From: Nautilus pompilius
Lineage: Eukaryota > Mollusca > Cephalopoda > Nautilida > Nautilidae
NCBI GenBank assembly: GCA_018389105.1
Contig: JACATO010000684.1
Location: forward strand, 372,001 to 436,000
DNA length: 64,000 nt
Reading direction: 5' to 3'
Part shown: in pieces, positions 3,074-63,340 of the stretch
Numbering within the stretch: position 1 is the first letter of the stretch
Layout: every line of letters starts with the position of its first letter
Made by a program: the position numbers and the translations under genes
The notes under the pieces: model-generated
Told to the model about the DNA's origin: nothing
The model's input: the letters and a program-made list of their open reading frames with translations, nothing else
Database searches by the model: none

Positions 3074-4212
3074 TACGAGGTCTGTTGAAAAAGTAGCCGA
3101 GTATTTTTTCCTGTGAGAAGTAATGACGTTGGGGAGGCAAAAGTGTGCATAGTGGAGCCGCATGCCTTTGTGTGCATGCGTGGTTTTTGGCAGGCTTGCT
3201 GGATGTGTCAGTCGCTGTCAGGCAGGCAGCGTGTGAGGTGCTGTACTACTTACTCGTCGCTTTTTCATTTCGCCCATGATGATGGAACGTGTGGAGCAAC
3301 GAACTTGCAGCAAGTTTTGCCAAAAGCTTGGAGATACCCAAGCGGAAACAATTCGCAAAATTCAACGGGCTTTTGGTGACAATGCCATGGGTATCTCCAT
3401 GAAGATGGAGGATCATTGTTTGACGGTGCGGGAAATTGGTGACAAGGTTTGGATCAGTAAAGATTCTGCACATGCAATCTGAAAGGATGATTTGGGCTTG
3501 TGCAGAGTGGCAGCGAAATTTGTGCCCAAGCTGCTTTCTCAGGAACAACAACAACTTCGTCTTGAGGTTGCGCAGGACCGGCTGGATACTGCCAACAGGG
3601 ATCCTGAGTTCCAGAATACTGTGATAACTGGAGATGAGATGTGGGTGTATGGGTACGACCCAGAAACCAAAGCTCAGTCATCACAGTGGAAGCACCCAAC
3701 GTCGCCAAGGCCCAAAATAGCACGTCAGGTCCAGAGCAAAATCAAGGTGATGCTGACTGTTTTCTTCGACTACCGAGGCGTTGCGCATCACGAATATGCA
3801 CCAGAAGGACAAACAGTTACGAAGGAGTACTATCAGGAAGTCCTCCGACATCTTCGTGATGCAGTTTGGTGCAAGAGACCGGATCTGTGGGCCTCGCAAA
3901 ACTGGAAGCTGCATCATGACAATGCCCCGGCACATTTGTCGCAGTTGATCCAAGGTTTCTTGGCCAAGAAAAGCATTTCAGTCATTTGCCAGGCTCCCTA
4001 CTCTCCAGACACGGCTCCTTCTGACTTCTGGTTGTCGCCAAAAATGAAGAAGCCACTGAAAGGCTCCCGCTTTGAGAGCCGAGAGGACATCATGCGAATG
4101 CGACGGCGGAGCTGAAAGCCATTCCGGAAGAAGCATTCCAGACGTGCTTTGAACATTGGAAGGATCGCTGGGCTAAATGTGTGGAGGCACAAGGGGCCTA
4201 CTTTGAATGTTG
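3074..4212 (+). mobile_element. mariner element, nearly full-length transposase, 3' end lost
   Basis: It begins with a terminal repeat TACGAGGTCTGTTGAAAAAG at 3074, shared with the 49.8 kb copy. The transposase reads in one frame from an ATG cluster near 3276. The N-terminal helix-turn-helix begins VEQRTCSKFCQKLGD. A single TGA at 3480-3482 interrupts it, and it then continues to about 4113. The mariner catalytic blocks are present: VITGDEMWVYGYDPETK, HHDNAPAH and YSPDTAPSDFWL (DD34D pattern). A frameshift near 4095-4105 separates the C-terminal block (EEAFQTCFEHW). An N-terminal segment present in the sister copy is missing here between about 3388 and 3402. No 3' terminal repeat follows. Not intact, but among the least decayed transposases in the window. 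Confidence 0.9.
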
Positions 4213-9311: not shown

Positions 9312-12300
9312 CTGGAAAAAGAATTAATAGGATGATAATGTACAAAATATCAGGAAATGAAAGAAAACTGCTGAAACATTGTCTCTTTTAATATAAGCCT
9401 AATTTATCCACATTGTTATTCGTTAATTCTCAAACTTTTCATGGGCGAATGCGCAACATAAGTCATGCAAATTTTCTCCATGAATAGTGGCAATAGTGTT
9501 GTTCACAGAGAAAGGAAATCTATTCAGCCAAAAGCATACATAGAAATCAAAAAAAATTTTGACAAAAAAATTCATTAAATAGTTTCTGTTGCTACTACTA
9601 CAAATATTCGCAGTCAATATTTTAAGAGTGACATTTTAAACAAAAAAAAAAATAGTTTTGTTGAAAAATAAATTTTATAAGCAACAAGTTCGAGAAGTTA
9701 CAAATAAGGGTAGCATATTATCTCCAAACCTTTTCTCTTAAGCACAACTGATTTTAAAATCTGAATGGGATTTTAAAAATTTGCTAATTTTCTCATTTAA
9801 TAAAATAAGAAAAAATTAAAAGCAAAACAGACATTTTATAATCATATAATTCTGAATATCAATCTATCATTTTTTTTAACACAAATAGACTAATTTTACC
9901 ATAAATTTTGAAATGTTTTTATTAGGTCCCTACAGATAATGTGTTAATACTGTATGTCAACATAGTTATTTCTCAAGCCTTTGGTTCATCATTCCTTGCT
10001 TTAATACTGACACAATCCCAGAATTATTTTACAATCAGAATTTGCTAGATTTCCATTTGAAAATCTAATTAATTCTAGAAATATTTTTTATCTGTAAAAG
10101 AAATCTTGTGAATACAATGTCCAGGTCATGTATCTTAGAACTCTTAAATATTCTTCAGTTTGTAATTAATTTTGATGTTTTGGGTCAAAATCAATTTCCA
10201 GCTAACAAAACAGTTCTGATAATGTGTTAGACAAGAATGGATTTTCAATATTTGATTGGTTCACAAAATCAAATCAGATCAAATGCTACCATTTTTACCC
10301 ATCATACTGACCAATTATCTAATAACTTTGAAGACAAACATTATTTCTTACCTGCCCCGAGAACAATTAATAATAATATAATTCTTCTTAAATACATTCA
10401 AAGGATGCAAAACGAAAATCACGATAACTCTGGTTGGGTGTGACAATAAAGAGTTTTGCAAGTCAATGCTGGCTGCAGACATTGCTTCCACTGTTGTAGG
10501 ATACTCTATACAAACAAAACTGCAGGAAACAGATTGATGTGCACTGGTTGTAGCCATCTAAATGTGCAGTGCCATGCACCACCAAAATAAACAAAGCTTA
10601 AGCAGGGAAGACCAGAGCATTTCTTTTTGCAGCCTTGCACCCAAAACCACTTTCTTCTTCTTCACATAAAAATGGCAAGATATTCAGCTGAAAAAAGGCA
10701 AATGCAGCAACAGCACTACGATAATTTTCAAGGATGGTTTATGGTAGATAGACACCAGTTAAAATCTTTTTGAACTTTTCTTACAGTATATAGGAATATG
10801 ATTACTGATTTCAGAAATATCCGACAAAAAAAAGCAAAGACATGCACTTAATTTTAGGAAAAGAACATTTTGGTGCACTTAAAAAAAACAAACAAAGGAA
10901 ATAAATTATTTATCATGACTCAAGATCTGTTACTACAAAAACAAATTTAAAAAATTGAAGAAAGCATTTACTTACTACCATTATATCTCACTTTTAAAAG
11001 TCTTTCATCTGTTTTTTCCCCAAGTGAAGCAACACAGTATACATCACCATTATAAAATATTCGAGGAAACTCAAGAATAAAACCTTCTGTTTGATTGTAG
11101 GTTATAAGTTCTTTGTTAAATATGTCAATCATTGATCCATTTTTTTTCATCCTCAAAGTGATATTAGCTTCTGGGTTTGTCAAAATACAAGGAAATATAG
11201 CTCTTCTATTAGCATATATATTCACAAAGGTATGAAATTCGTCAGTCAGCGAAATTAGTTTTTCAGGATCTGAAAAGAAAAAAAATATTAAAATTTTAAT
11301 TCACTGATATTGTATCTAAAAGTGGTGGTGCTACAGAGCACAGACAGTCAAGTTAAGTTTTAAAAATATATACACATCAAGCCTCTGGTTCAATGGCCAC
11401 ATTAGTAAGTCCTCTCTTCATGCAACTTAATTATATGGGATTTTGCTATTATGCAGTCAGGTGAAGATGATGTCATGTGCAAGACATTACTCAGGCAGCT
11501 AATGGAAACAATTGGGGGACAAAATTTCTCCACAAACTGGAGAAGCCAATCACAGAGCCACTCAATGCACATGTTTGGATGGTGAAGTGACAGATGATGA
11601 GCAAATTGTAATGGAAACCAGCCTTCATGCTCACTCAGTCTTGCGTTGTCTGTCATAGCATGTGGAAGCATTTTTTCAAGAATTTTAACGTGGTTGGTCG
11701 AACCTTTAACCTTGACAATTCAGCCACACAGATGATTAAAAAAAAGAATGCCGAGAAGATCGTAGGTTCTGTGAGTGCTTCAATCTCTCTTTTGGCAAAA
11801 AGTGAGAAATCCAGAGTAAGGAACACAGCATTGGAGAAGATGGATAAAATGCTTAAATTCTGGAAAGAAGATCAGAGTCAGTGAAAGATGTGTCTTAGCA
11901 AATCATTGATCCAGAGTAAGGCTCAGCAGATTTATAACCAACTTATAAAAGAACAAAAAACACAAGAGCCATTTAATCAAGTGAGGAGTGGTTCAATAAA
12001 TTTCTATGCCACCAAAAGCTCCATAATATGATCTGTCAGCTAATGCCAAGTTTCCAGACAAGTTACGAACTGGGATCAAAGGTGATTACAACACAAGACA
12101 AATGTTTAACACAGATGAGATTGGATTGTTTTGGAAAGGGATACCCAAAAGAACTTAAAACAGTGAGTGTGGAATCTGGATTCAAAGCAGTTGAGAGACA
12201 GGTGGAAACACTACAAAAGACACAAAGACAAAGCCATTCTGTACATACCATTCCATGAACCCACATGCACTCAGTAAACTCAGTAAGAACATGTTATCTA

Positions 12301-47200: not shown

Positions 47201-50200
47201 TTAAGTAGCCTTCTTCCTTTCAGTTGGTCTCCATTTCTCTTTATGAATTGCTAAACTTTCTCTATTATTAACCTTCATCGTTTTAGTTTTAGAAAATGTA
47301 GTGCAGTGTCTGTGGTGGATTAACAATATGCTGGTTAGTGGCGTCTCTAAGATTAAACTATGCCTTTTCCTACTACAATGAGAGAGAATATAAACAAGCT
47401 TAGTTAAATGGTACGTTCTTCAGTCTAAATGGAAAAGTTAGTTTTTATCTGCTTGCTGCCATCAGATAAGTTCAGTGGATTTTAGGGCTTTTCTAGTTAA
47501 ATGTCTCTAAAATTTTATTTACAGTTGAGATTTTCAACAATAGGTGTTGTTATCAGACAGGAAAGCAGCTGATAAGTGGCTTGCGCCTGTGTGAGGCTAG
47601 TACTTGTCATTCAAATAAGTAGGGTCACTAAAATACTCTTGCAGCTGGTTTTAAAGGTTTCTTTCTTTGATATGTTGATGTCTGATGAGTCTCTGCTGCT
47701 GTCATCATTAACACATTTTACCAGCTGAACTCTTTCTGAATTCATGGTGTTACTTTAGTTTAACCCCCTACATGGAGATACAAAAACGTATGCCTCTCGT
47801 TTATAGCTTGGACCACTGAAAACTCGAGGAATTCACCAATGGTTTTGCCTGTAGGAGAAAAACCAAGACTTCCCACAGTCCGCCTAATTTCTTCTTTGGG
47901 GGGGGTGAGATTTCAGAATGCGTAACAAAAGCCCTATGTTGGTGGGTACCTCTCGATCCACTGGGGCTTTTATCAGCTTTTCCCAGTATGAAAGTAACCT
48001 GCATACAAATTTGCAAGTTCACTGAAGGAAATTCTTTGTTGTTGATGGTGCACATTTGCCTGGGTATCGTAAATATCTTCTTAATAGCCAACCTTTCAAA
48101 AGAGATCTCTGAACAGCAGCTGTATCAGCCTCACTAAGAATTGAAGAGAGGTCTGGAGATGACCAACATTTTGTAGCACTTTTCTGCTGATGTATATACA
48201 CCACAAAGTTACGAGGGGGGGGTGGTAAAGTTGGCGCTCCGATAGCCATGTCTATTTAACTGCTTTTTAACCTCACCATGTCATGAGAAAGGGGAAAAAA
48301 ATGGTGGATACAGAGTCTCTATATAATGAAATAGTCAAGACTTTTATCTGAGCAGAAAGAGCCAACTTAGTTTTCATTTGAGCAACTATTAAACCACAGC
48401 GAACAATACTTAACGTTTGCTCCTCTCCAGTCTTAGTTGGACTCGCTCATCTTTAGATCAGAAAACTGTTCTACGTGGAGATCAAGCTGTTCAGGACGTT
48501 TGATAGTCTCCCCTGGTATCAGAAATCTTGGAGAGACTCTCTCGCTAATTTAATTGATAAACGCCACCTTACCACGTTTGGTGCAGATAGAATTACCGTT
48601 CTCCATGGGCGCCTAGCTATTTACGTGTGACCAAGTCCCCGTGCCTGTTCTGCCTGCATTATTAGAATAATTACTTCATTTTGATAAGGGAAATAAACAT
48701 CAGTACACCCCCCCAAAAAAAAACAACAACTCGCAATCCTGTGTATGTTGAATATTATAAATGTTGACCGTATATTTGTTAGACAAAATTATTTGAGAGT
48801 CTGGAACACATTTTCCTGTAGTCTGGTGCCCTCCTTCAATAGAATGGGTTTGGATCAGCGTGCACAAAGCAGGGAAGATGTAAAACGTGCGGAACTTATT
48901 GCTGTTATCTGCCTTCTGATTTAATGTAATGGCTGGTGAACCAGGTTTCATCTGGGTTGGCTAATCATCTTTTTCATTAACTTTGGCTACTCATTGGCAG
49001 AAGCACATGAATAGTTGATGATCAGAAAAAAGCTAAAATTAACTTGGTAACCAACTTGATTTCATGTGTTCCCTGTTGGCTGGTCATTGTTTCTGCAATA
49101 ATGACAGTGTCAATAGAGATTCTCAAGTCCTTGAGATTAATATTCACATGAGAAAATACTCGGTTACCAGGGACCGCAGGATGTTTTGTGGAGATGTTCA
49201 GCATTAGGTGAGCACTTGTGCTGTTGTTCATTAATGACTGTCAGCAAATACTATACAACTTTTGAAATGTTTAAGTTTCTATGATTGTGATTAAAATTGT
49301 TCTTAAGAAAGCCTTTTCTTTTGGCATTAAAATATAATTGCTTGTCTTATCAAATGTAGGTAGAGCATAGTGCACATATTTGATAGACTTTATTGTATCA
49401 CAGTTGGTTACCATGATATTAAATTTTCAGCCTGGTGCAGAGATATTTTAATTTGAGTAGGAAATTATTCTGACTTGGCCAGATCTGATCTCCTCTGCCT
49501 TTTTTTTGTTGCAGATAAGTATATAGTGACAATCAACTAGTTTGTAGACAGATCTTTGGGAAATGTTATACACCACATAGTTAATTCCAGCTGTGAAGAG
49601 AAGCAGAACAATCAGAAGATGGAAAACAATTTATTTCATTACATCAGCAAATGATATAATCTGCATTGGTACATCATCACTGGATCAAGGCCATGTGGAG
49701 GGGAATTCCTGAGTGCTTTGTCACTAATGCCCACAGCTGTTTAGTGGATGAAAGATCTGGGGATATACGAGGTCTGTCGAAAAAGTATCCGACTTTATTT
49801 TTCCCTGTGAAAAGTAATGACGTTAGGGAGGCAAAAGTGTGCATAGTGGAGCCGCATGCCTTCATGAGCATGCGTGGTGCTGTACTACTTACTCGTCACA
49901 TTTCCATTTCGCCAGTGATGATGGAACATGTGGAGCAACGATCTTGCAGCAAGTTTTGCCAAAAGCTTGGAGATACTCAAGCGGAAACAATTTGCAAAAT
50001 TCAACAGGTTTTTGGTGACAATGCCATTGGTGTTACCCAAATAAAAGAATGGTACAACAGGTTCAAAGATGGCCACACATCAGTGGAGAGTGACCAGCGT
50101 TCCGTGAGGCCGTCAATGAGCTGCAATGCAGTTCTTGATGATGGAGGATCGTCGTTTGATGGTGTGGGAAATTGGTGACGAGGTTGGGAACAGTAAAGAT

Positions 50201-52859: not shown

Positions 52860-55800
52860 CTGTAATAACAAACAAAGTCTGTAAGACAACAACCAAAACC
52901 CTCATTTTTCTTTAAGATATTCCAAAGAAATCTACCAAATAGATGATCAAATTTTGAACTTATTCATCTACGGACCTCCCCCAATCTACGAGTGCTCATG
53001 GAATGAACTCTTTCTGGTAGCTATTTGGTTTCAACTGTCGGAAAAGGTGGGTACTGAGAAGCAGAAATCAGGTCAAAATCCATTCTCCATCTTTAGTGGT
53101 TTAAAATGTCTAGCATGTTGCTTCATCTTCATGGATCTGATCAAATATATGCAGAAGTGTATTTCATAAGATGCATAGAGTTAGTGGGAAAATTTTAGAT
53201 ATCCCTGGATAAATGCAAGAGCTAAGACTGTTTAGATCATTTCTCCAAATCTACCAACAATGGAATTGTTTCAGTAACTATCATTCCATCCCTAAACTAA
53301 AACTCCACGTCTCTAATAATGCGGTGGGTGACCGAGATTTTTTATTTAGCATATTCAAGATGTTTTAGCTAGAGAAGAATATGTATAAACACCCCTCTAT
53401 GCCACACTTTCTCCCAGGGGAAGTACATGCTAGTGGTAAGGTTATTTATCCAGACCAAAGAAAAAGAATATTAAATGAGAAAACCAACCAAAAAAGGGGA
53501 TGGATGAAACATCAGTATACTTTCAGACGAGAGAAAATTTCAACCATGTAAGCGAGTCTGAAGTTTTGTGACAGAAACAAGTCATTGCTTGCTCTTCATA
53601 CTACTGACAGAAAAACCACCACCTACCTGTTTAGATCAATGCACACTGGTAAAAGCTATTTCATGCAAAAAACATTTCACCCCTACTTTATAAAAGAGGG
53701 GATAGAAAACACCCCGCCCTGACACAAATTCCACCCATTAAAACAATACAGCTGGGCTTTTACATCTCTCCTCTCGATGAATTGGCTATTGTTTTATTAG
53801 AAATGCACTTCTATTAGTTAGAAATTTTGAGCAATTAATCAGATTTATTATATTTAATGATTTTTTTTAGTTTATCTAAATTTGAAAAAAAAAAATTGTA
53901 ATTCATCCATGCATAAGTATCACTTTAAAAGAGGGAAAGAAAACTGCTAATGAATAATCTGCCGCTTACACAGTCGTCTTGGATTAAAATGACTTTGAGT
54001 GAGCATCTTTCTTTACCTGCAGTGGATTTTCAGGTCCTTGTTTCAGATCCACCATCACTGCTTCCTGCTCCTCCCGTAGCATGGCTACTGTCACATAAGG
54101 CTGTGAATACCTCTCGTCAGCAGGTAGTGTATACCATTCGTCGGGAATGTTGGTGTACCTATGATGAACTGCGTGGCAGCAGCTCTGCGGGGGTTCATCA
54201 TCCCAAAATACTTTCCGCTGCTTTGACTCCTCCACGTAACAGCAAAGCTGTTGGGTCAGAGGGGAGGTAACTGCGGGCAGCGCATTCTCCCTCACTGATA
54301 AGTTACTGTTGTTATCCAGCTGATTTGCAACAGTACTCTCATGACCAGTAGGAATCACATCTGGTGTTGGCAGCAAAGTCTTTATGCAGACATCTGATGT
54401 TCCACTCGAGGGCCTGTTGTGCTCTATTGCAGATTCTAATGACTTGTCTGTTATCCCAGAATCCTTCCCATCAGCCACATGAGATATTTTCTCCCCCTTT
54501 GGCTTCTGGTTGAGCAGCAGCTGTGACAACGCCTTGTGAATGTAACCCAGCTTCTCAGTCAAAGCAAATCGCTTTGCTTGGATATCCCATAGCACACTCC
54601 GAGAAATGTACCTGAGTTTCTCAAAGTCGAGTTCATACATCATTTTATCTTTGGTTTTAAAGCTGGTTCCATCTTCTAAACACAAATCACTTTTCCTCAG
54701 CAGCACATTGTTGTTGGTCTGATCGCTTAACTTCTCTGGATTTTTACTATTCTCAACAGCTGTCATATCACCGGAATGCGTGCAGTTTATTTCTGCTTGT
54801 GAGTCCATGGGTCTTGAGTTCTCAGAGAGCTTCTTCTGGTGATGCTGTTCTTCTACACAATAGTACAATGCTGCCATATAGAAGTATGCCCGAACACAGT
54901 CAAGTTCACGACATCGATGACCTGTGTTTGAGATACCATCTCCGTCTTTCAGCTCCGACAGATAACGCTTTGTACTCTGCATCTTCACAGACGAGTCAAA
55001 GCTGGCATCACTGGTGTCCATGCTGATCATCACTCGGACAGCAGTCACTTCCTGCTGCAGTTTTAACAAATACTTTGGTCCTAAAAGAAAGAGAGAGTCA
55101 TGTACTTTTCATTAACGATTTCGTCAGATTGCCAAATTGCCAGAACAGGCTAAATTCTAAAAAAAATAGCGGTCTCGTATGGTCCATTTGCTGGAAATGT
55201 GAACCCCTCATAAGTAATGTAAGTTCATCCACTCGAATAGTAGCATTGTTTTTTAATATTTGGTCAGCTATCAAATCACATCAGCCATTAACAGTATATC
55301 TGACACACAAATGAAGTAAAACGGGGAATGCACATATAAAAAAAATGAAATTAAAGGAATTAGCAGAGTTTTTAAAAGGATAGACTTTGTTTCTTTCTAA
55401 AAATTTTTTAGTTAACCAGCAACTTTGTCACTACCCAAGGAATCTAGGAAAACAGCATTAGTTCTCAATGCGCTTTTATGAGTAAAAAGTTAATATAACT
55501 TCAAAGCATTAGCTAAACAGCAACTTCAACGATGCGGTAGAACAGGCTGCTTGCTGTATGGTTTACGGGTCAGATGTCACTTTCATTATGGCAGTAAATG
55601 TTTAAGGGCCACCAAGTTTAATTTTAATTAACTATATCTGGTTTAGAACAAAAGTCACATGTGGGCAAGGATCACCTGCATATGAATTTGTCATGTACTG
55701 ACCTTGTGGAAGACACAGACGAGATAGAGCCAGCAGGAACCGGTACTGACCAGCTTCATGAAGACTGGTGCAGGCCTGCAGCAGGTGCTTGATGGCAGCT

Positions 55801-61012: not shown

Positions 61013-61016
61013 ATTA

Positions 61017-63336
61017 CACTGGTCAACAAAATTAAATGTATTATACTCATGAATGCAAACCAACTTTTTTAGACTAATTTTTCATGCTGATTTCAAACTT
61101 TCACCTCATTTGTATGCAGCACGTATCAGTTTTTCAGTAGATACATGCAAATATTTACATATTTGTATATATGAAATCATTAACGTAATAAATAAGGACA
61201 CATTATTTTTAGAATGTAAATGAGTTTATGAGTTAAAAATCATCACTATCACTCTACAAGAGGATACACAATAATGAGACAAAAAACAGGACAAAGTCAG
61301 AACAACAGAGTTAGAAACATTGTGATTTGGATTTCCTGCGGTGTTCCTGATCTGGTTGATCACGGTAAGGTGTCCAGCAGTAGTCAGCCAGCATACTGTC
61401 ATTCCAGAAGCCTTGGTACCGTTTCTCCATAGCACTAATTTCCTGGTGAAATCTTTCACCATGTTCCTCAGACACTGCTCCAAGGTTATCTGCGAAGAAA
61501 TCCAGATGGGAGTCCAAGAAGTGAACTTTCAGTGACATGCAACAACCCATTGCTGAGTAACATTTCAGAAGATTGTCGATGCCATCCTTGTAGTCCATTG
61601 CCTTCTTGTTGCCCAAGAAATTCTCACAGATCCAATTGAAAGCATTCCAGTTCATCCAGTGTTGTCTTGAAGTTGACGTCTTTGAGTACTTCTCTAATTT
61701 GGGGTCCGACAAAGATACCCTCTTTCAACTTCGCCTGTGTAATTTTGGGAAACTTTTCTACAATATACTCAAACCCTCTGGCATTTCTCTTTCCTAGTGT
61801 CTTTACAAACTGTTTGATCAGTCCAAGCTTTATGTGCAAAGGAGGCAATAGGACATTACATGGATCTACAAGAGGTTTATTCTTGACGCTAGACAGTCCT
61901 GGCTGGTATGATGTTCTTGTCTGCCAGTTTGATTCCGAATATCCCATAGACGCAAGAAACAACAGTATTTTGTGAAACCTGACTGCATTCCCATTAACAT
62001 TCCAATGACTTTTAAATCTCCACATATTTTCCACAAGTATCTTTCATAGGCAATGGCATGAAGTAAAAGTTCCATATTCTCATATGATTCACGAAGATGA
62101 ATGGAGTGTGCAATAGGAATGGAGGGCTTCAAATTACCATTATGGAGAAGTACAGCTTTTAAACTTCGTTTTGAAGAGTCAATAAACAAACGCCACTCTG
62201 CAGGATCATGATTTTGTGATAAACATTCGAAAAGTCCATCGATGTTACTGCAAAAGCAAAGCGGACCTTCAACAGAAAAACACGTTTGTAGAACCACATT
62301 TCTCTGCCGAAAATAAGTTATACGAACACGTGCTCTAGCAGATACTTCTCCTTCAGTCTGATGCCAACAGTTCTGCTTTATCTTTTGAGAGGGATAGGTC
62401 TCTGACAAGGTTATTCAGTTCAGCTTGGGAAAATTTCTGAGGTTCAAAGCTATCGTCATCAGCCACGTAATCTTCCTCAGCAGCACTATCGTGACAGTCA
62501 GCATCATCATCTGGTGGAACTGGAATTGGCAGGACTTCCTGTGAGGCACAGGTCTCATTGCAGAATCCAAATTGGATACACAATTTTGTGTTTATTCTTC
62601 ATAGAAAAACCTGTGACATTTACTTTAAAAAAATAACAGTCATTAAAATGGTCTTTCGGCTCCCTCCATATCATTGGAATGGCAAAAGGCATGGACTTCT
62701 TCCTCTTATTGAACCAGTCACGTAAGCCATTTGAGCAAGCTGAGCAGATAAAATGTGGTGCCCATAACTTGTCCTGATCTCCAAGAGGACAGTCAAAGTA
62801 TAGCTTATAAATCTTCTTGATCTCTGGTGTTATTGTACGTTTTTGAGCTTTCACAATAAATTGTCCACAGACATAACAAAACACATCAGGAAAATTTCTA
62901 CACTGCCTTGACATGGTTAACACTGTAAAACAAGTAAGGAAATAGATACAAACGGTTATACTTATACTGAATTTGAGATGATGAAATATTTCATCAGACC
63001 AATTATGGCTGGACAATTGAGAGATGTGAAATACCTATTTCATCAGACAAAACTTGATCGGTTAATTTAAGATGATGAAATATTGCATCTGAACTATGCA
63101 GCAATGAATAATGTAGTTTATTTTAAAGGTGTGTTTCCATGATGTAAATGAAATACATGCATACACGTCATTAATTGGAATTTCTATATAATGCATGAGC
63201 TAAAAAAAAAAAAACTTTCTCATCTTGAAAACTGTGGGTGATGTCAAAAAACTAATTGTATATTTGAAATCAGCATTAAAAACTACACTAAGTACACCTT
63301 GACATATGCTTGATGGAAAATACTTGTTGACCAGTG
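61017..63336 (-). mobile_element. 2.32 kb TIR transposon carrying an uncharacterised zinc-finger transposase-like gene
   Basis: The left end CACTGGTCAACAA and the right end TTGTTGACCAGTG are perfect inverted repeats of 13 bp, flanked by TA on both sides (61015-61016, 63337-63338). The only coding sequence inside is the minus-strand gene listed next. Distance from stop codon to left end is about 294 bp, and from start codon to right end about 422 bp. Sits in the intron or 5' flank of the unknown gene, on its own strand. Confidence 0.8.
61311..62914 (-). pseudogene. Zinc-finger putative transposase, decayed by about five frameshifts
   Basis: From ATG at 62912-62914. It starts MSRQCRNFPDVFCYVCG, an N-terminal CxxC, with a second pair in HFICSAC, then SMPFAIPMIWREPKDHFNDC. 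An acidic linker and LNNLVRDLSLSKDKAELLAS follow. The core has WRLFIDSSKRSLKAVLLHNG, CGDLKVIGMLMG, YTKYCCFL, LLPPLHIKLGLIKQFVKTL, SLKVHFLDSHLDFF, EEHGERFHQE and LADYCW, and a basic tail ends at the stop near 61311. Frameshifts lie near 62575 and 62545 (two close together), 62370, 61930 and 61650. Related proteins of about 530-600 residues occur in many copies in arthropod and cnidarian genomes as uncharacterised proteins (from memory). The D, D and E in these blocks are my candidate catalytic triad. Confidence 0.8.
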
Positions 63337-63340
63337 TAAT

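Follow-up and report, generated by a model that had tools for sequence, protein, structure and literature searches.

A decayed Chapaev3-type DNA transposon with TWA target duplications in the genome of Nautilus pompilius

We analyzed a 64,000-nucleotide stretch of the Nautilus pompilius genome, hereafter called the window, and found that positions 61017–63336 are almost certainly a decayed copy of a cut-and-paste DNA transposon of the Chapaev3 lineage (CMC group), a membership that is assigned from the element's features and not from a tree. The element is real, and it belongs to a known class and opens no new one. A preliminary description of the same DNA had reported a minus-strand gene bracketed by 13-bp perfect inverted repeats, and had read its protein family as the transposase of a cut-and-paste element with terminal inverted repeats (TIRs). 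The gene indeed fills the element, spread over several frames (Table 1), the repeats are exact, and dispersed copies that run from end to end support the family's reading as a transposase.

The two TIRs match each other with 0 mismatches over 13 bp, and the inverted match lengthens to 17 nt with the flanks included (61013–61029 and 63324–63340), because these flanks are ATTA and TAAT. The TIRs show the 5′-CAC start and GTG-3′ finish that characterize Chapaev3 ends. Inside the window, the count of the 13-mer alone is unremarkable (4 matches with at most 2 mismatches, a number that 22 of 100 shuffles also reach), and the proof of an element is the recurrence of its ends throughout the genome. 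Across the 727.6 Mb searched (2558 contigs), the exact 13-mer occurs 1059 times in the forward and 1041 times in the reverse orientation, as compared to 15 and 8 times for a reversed control; the search of the inverted repeat against its own genome, which the preliminary description had proposed as a check, thus returned 2,100 exact ends. Because a copy has at most two ends, the genome contains more than 1,000 copies, and whole elements are repeated end to end across it.

Table 1. Positions of the element's features in the window (aa, amino acids; coding sense is the minus strand).
Feature	Position	Strand	Remark
TIR, 3′ end of the element in coding sense, CACTGGTCAACAA	61017–61029	+	2,100 genomic occurrences of the 13-mer
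TIR, 5′ end of the element in coding sense	63324–63336	−	Inverted CACTGGTCAACAA
Target duplication by the 3′ end, TTA on the plus strand (TAA in coding sense)	61014–61016		Follows the TWA rule
Target duplication by the 5′ end, TAA on the plus strand (TTA in coding sense)	63337–63339		Middle base unlike that of the other side
Chapaev3-type transposase gene with several frameshifts	61311–62914	−	Counterpart of the 554-aa frame of L099; MSRQC at 62900–62914, final stop at 61311–61313
N-terminal cysteine-rich region, putative zinc finger	62627–62881	−	zf-AD match below cut-off
Cysteine motif FCYVC	62867–62881	−	
Cysteine motif FICSAC	62735–62752	−	
Cysteine motif CYFF	62627–62638	−	
WRLFIDSS, candidate first catalytic D	62172–62195	−	D kept in L101, L102 and L103
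CGDLKV, candidate second catalytic D	62007–62024	−	D kept in L101, L102 and L103
C(2)C motif, decayed to CCFLR	61950–61964	−	CCFLC in L099
LLPPLHIKLG, LH motif	61822–61851	−	
HFLDSH, H(4)H motif	61506–61523	−	
EEHGERFHQ, carries the candidate catalytic E	61443–61469	−	DEHGERFHQ in L099
34-nt direct repeat (85% alike, 94 bp spacing)	62970–63003 and 63064–63097		5′ leader

Individual copies were obtained from loci drawn from among the 13-mer matches listed (the first 100 of 2,100 places) and from further loci fetched around protein matches, where 150 of 5404 candidates were scored. Together with the window, the 98 loci make 99 entries, of which 32 lack a two-ended copy and two are duplicates; the sample is n = 65 two-ended copies. 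Thirty of the loci (L069–L098) were picked by their similarity to the window's C-terminal peptide, so that near relatives of the window copy are over-represented.

The flanks of these copies correct one part of the preliminary description: the target duplication is a 3-bp TWA within an ATWAT target, and not TA. TWA is present on both sides of 44 of the 65 copies, 37 of which carry the identical triplet twice (22 with TAA on both sides and 15 with TTA on both sides); identical triplets of any kind flank 40 of the 65, and 21 of the 65 lack TWA on at least one side. An A stands at position −4 in 59 of 65 copies and a T at position +4 in 62 of 65, which places the insertion between A and T. Throughout the genome, ATWA precedes 1722 of the 2,100 exact ends (A-TWA followed directly by CACTGG; 0 and 0 in the control), divided into 884 ATTA and 838 ATAA. 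A simple TA duplication beside the ends can produce neither the ATAA half of these ends nor the copies with TAA on both sides, and therefore the duplication is TWA. In the window copy, only TA matches by eye because one side is TTA and the other is TAA in coding sense. The middle base differs in this manner in 7 of the 44 TWA/TWA copies, the window copy included, a difference that may stem from later mutations or from exchange among copies.

Taken alone, the window copy, which does have TA beside both exact inverted repeats, could be read as belonging to a new superfamily of TIR elements that duplicate TA. We consider such a superfamily very improbable, as 22 of 65 copies are flanked by TAA on both sides and 15 of 65 by TTA on both sides, ATTA and ATAA are about equally frequent before the ends (884 versus 838 of 2,100), and both the motifs and the ends are the ones published for Chapaev3. 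The Tc1/mariner group and other TA-duplicating groups were likewise excluded, by the ATAA at 838 of 2,100 ends and the TAA pairs of 22 of 65 copies. Joined-flank searches for the window copy, L092 and L026 yielded no paralogous empty site: the joined flanks of the window copy and of L092 matched their own site only, and the 40 of 121 candidates that were scored for L026 included none spanning both flanks.

Because of its frameshifts, the window copy is not expected to specify a functional transposase. Better-preserved coding sequences are found elsewhere in the genome, where the 150 scored of 5404 protein-match candidates include two frames that stay open for over 600 codons. The copy at locus L099 contains an unbroken 554-aa frame from the first methionine of MSRQC (positions 366–2027 of the locus, minus strand), and the frame of L100 extends for 551 aa from the same methionine. 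The L099 protein, P0001, contains in order D254, D308, CCFLC (residues 326–330), PPLHIKLG and HFLDSH (residues 485–490), followed by a DEHGE block with two options for the candidate catalytic E, E504 and E507. WRLFIDSS, CGDLKV and EEHGERFHQ, which the preliminary description had put forward as the carriers of the catalytic D, D and E, are each located on the minus strand of the window copy (Table 1). It had also described a C-x2-C after the second D in better-preserved relatives and had likened it to the C/DxxH motif of hAT, P and KDZ transposases; the better copies bear out the motif, as CCFLC, and not the likeness. A hAT, P or KDZ transposase would agree with the cysteine motif in that the motif does come after the second D, but it is scarcely credible here. 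The C(2)C is followed by a separate LH and a separate H(4)H, which is the CMC/Transib/RAG1 pattern, the duplication is 3 bp long in contrast to the 8 bp that is usual for hAT elements, and the Pfam matches include no hAT or P model. We rejected this affinity because the C/DxxH feature is absent, its place being taken by these three motifs.

The window copy and L099 differ in length by 93 bp, and the 34-nt direct repeat in the 5′ leader is probably the source of this difference. Compared with L099, the reading frame of the window copy has shifted several times, and one length difference is common to 23 other copies, a figure that is inflated because 22 of these come from loci selected for their resemblance to the window's frameshifted peptide. 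A splice-acceptor-like stretch, TATTTCCTTACTTGTTTTACAG, is located a few bases before the ATG (about 62920–62945, minus strand) and is also present in L099; given this stretch, the leader of about 330–420 bp may contain an intron.

The same genome contains more distant relatives of the transposase. When the EHGERFHQ block was searched as a degenerate DNA pattern, 37 places matched with CGN as the arginine codon and 193 with AGG, with 0 matches in the control in both cases; among the 100 matches listed for the AGG variant, two read like the window family and most resemble one another. The proteins of L101, L102 and L103, three of the CGN places (contigs C84, C313 and C20), are 45–56% identical to P0001 and, by their motifs, are three further Chapaev3-like lineages, each of them frame-broken. 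Both D residues, the H(4)H motif and DEHGERFHQ are kept in P0001, L101, L102 and L103, as is the LH motif PPLHIKLG, which reads alike in these four proteins and in the window copy. CCFLC is kept in P0001, L101 and L103, and a stop breaks the C(2)C of L102. The H(4)H motif varies from HFLDSH (window copy, P0001 and L103) to HFLHSH (L101) and HLLHSH (L102).

Between lineages, the differences at codon positions 1, 2 and 3 number 108/64/174, 78/53/126, 101/63/149 and 97/60/159, an excess at the third position. Within the family of the window copy, substitutions found in a single copy are spread evenly over the three positions (115/132/128). This codon pattern fits selection on the enzyme during past transposition, with neutral decay after insertion. 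It also bears on the explanation that a host zinc-finger gene has come to lie between repeat ends by chance, or that the gene is a domesticated transposase, as the existence of a cysteine-rich N-terminal region could suggest. Such an origin is exceedingly improbable: the C-terminal part is encoded at 150 places scored among 5404 candidates, the copies bear the same ends, substitutions found in one copy only fall equally on the three codon positions, and the window copy is frameshifted. The many decayed copies with even codon-position substitutions led us to rule out a host gene.

The 65 two-ended copies comprise 8 of full length (2315–2397 bp), 23 of about 1.3–1.4 kb and 34 of about 1.6–2.0 kb, so that short forms make up 57 of the 65 sampled copies. 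We mapped deletions and divergence in the first 40 copies, and the shorter copies among them are internal deletions of the long form with the same ends. A deletion of alignment positions 344–1363 is common to 14 of the 40 copies, a deletion of positions 688–1278 is common to 6 of 40, and a deletion of positions 681–1278 with extra gaps is found in 7 of 40, which are about 4% off the majority, more than the other copies; the remaining copies are five with other deletions and the 8 of full length. Relative to the per-column majority, the 40 copies have a median divergence of about 1.7%, and the window copy one of 3.1%. Two copies on contig C59, L033 and L036, have 80 identical bases of 5′ flank with (AAT)n at their end, as though the two insertions had hit the same repeat, in its tail.

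Profile searches of Pfam and NCBIfam returned nothing above cut-off, a search of PHROGs returned nothing, and the best match in a sequence search of the PDB had an E-value of 0.51. No RAG1 model matched the element's own protein, and RAG1_imp_bd weakly matched the N-terminus of the relative L101 below the cut-off (E = 0.012; 15.7 bits, cut-off 23.3 bits). No relatives were found in contigs of viruses and prokaryotes or in phage records by searches that mostly matched short peptides or DNA exactly, by which distant relatives can be missed. Structure prediction, which the preliminary description had proposed as a check for an RNase-H core around D, D and E, reached a mean pLDDT of 36.0 from one sequence alone and of 49.1 from a shallow alignment (nine rows, four lineages), too low for either model to be used. 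A fold search with the latter model, which speaks neither for nor against such a core, listed 36 matches with E ≤ 10, of which the top one had E = 2.7 and none reached E ≤ 0.001.

We identified the group by comparison with published descriptions. In PMC4079192 (Zhang et al. 2014), Chapaev elements are described by 3- to 4-bp duplications, 5′-CAC/GTG-3′ ends and the C(2)C, LH and H(4)H motifs, and Chapaev3 elements by TWA duplications set between A and T, which empty sites confirm, and by derivatives with internal deletions. The Chapa zinc finger of Chapaev3 and the relationship of Chapaev3 to RAG1 are described in PMC4411706, and PMC12730594 groups Chapaev with EnSpm, Mirage, Transib and RAG1 through C(2)C and H(3-4)H, with Chapaev3 as a sublineage of Chapaev.

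The element described here is like the Chapaev3 group in its CAC...GTG ends, its A/T-flanked TWA, its combination of C(2)C, LH and H(4)H, and its candidate D/D/E residues, and also in its length (about 2.3–2.45 kb), its protein size (about 555 aa) and its internal-deletion forms, with no difference in kind. At the position of the Chapaev3 Chapa zinc finger it has a cysteine-rich N-terminus, for which the match to RAG1_imp_bd, in L101, is below cut-off. In the wider CMC/CMCT clade (EnSpm/CACTA, Mirage, Chapaev and Transib), duplications measure 2–4 bp in EnSpm and 5 bp in Transib, whereas here the duplication is the 3-bp TWA. The RAG1 recombinase has the C(2)C/H(3–4)H scheme in common with the element, and the relation is distant. 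Compared in this way with published descriptions, the ends, the duplication, the flanking A and T, and the three motifs fit Chapaev3.

Alternatively, the element could belong to Merrow, Garfield or Conan, which are named Chapaev3 families, in which case the family itself would already be known. Its protein and full-length copies (554 aa; 2315–2397 bp) are close in length to full-length Garfield and Merrow elements (556–562 aa; 2289–2455 bp), and Merrow has been found in lampreys and several fishes (PMC4079192). However, the transposase is encoded in two exons in the described full-length Garfield (2,289 bp; 78 + 478 aa) and Merrow (2,451 bp; 78 + 484 aa), in contrast to the uninterrupted 554-aa frame of L099, and Conan_ET is smaller, at 1,865 bp and 461 aa (PMC4079192). 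With Merrow, Garfield and Conan compared by their descriptions, we regard membership in a named family as unlikely.

The preliminary description had allowed that the finding would be less novel with the family already named in Repbase, and at the level of the group this is so, as Chapaev was named in 2007 and Chapaev3 in 2008 (Repbase Reports, cited by PMC4079192 and PMC4411706). The same description had considered the family's presence in a vertebrate to be notable; vertebrate hosts of Chapaev3 are already in print and include lampreys, sturgeon, paddlefish, catfish, tuna, tenrec and anole (PMC4079192).

The window also contains features outside the element. Two mariner-type transposase fragments are located on the plus strand, one at 3483–4115 (Pfam Transposase_1, E = 1e-16) and one at 49660–50178 (a Mos1-like HTH_48 domain, E = 3.4e-7). 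An exon-like frame at 10968–11300 on the minus strand has a match above cut-off to a VEGFR-1-like Ig domain (E = 2.3e-7) and would be part of a receptor-like host gene on that strand. A 374-codon open frame at 53984–55108 on the minus strand has no Pfam match at E 0.01.

By analogy with the family, the Chapaev3 element would move as follows. The transposase would bind both inverted ends via its N-terminal zinc-finger region, and a metal-ion active site formed by D, D and E would excise the element. The free ends would then be joined to an ATWAT target cut with a 3-bp stagger, and repair of the gaps at the staggered target would create the TWA duplication. Deletion forms whose breakpoint recurs in many copies were probably mobilized in trans by an intact relative.

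There is a slight chance that the genome holds a recently, perhaps still, mobile CMC-group transposon, a possibility raised by the median divergence of about 1.7% (40 copies) and by the unbroken 554-aa frame. The titles and abstract openings of the literature that we consulted name no active Chapaev3 transposase. If the element were mobile, a working Chapaev3 transposase could be a living outgroup for the chemistry of RAG1 and Transib. According to the preliminary description, genes of this family are generally left uncharacterized in invertebrate genomes; as this case shows, their ends, target duplications and motifs allow such genes to be named as Chapaev3 transposases. With many copies of low divergence and at least one full-length frame, the nautilus genome is a resource on a relative of RAG1.
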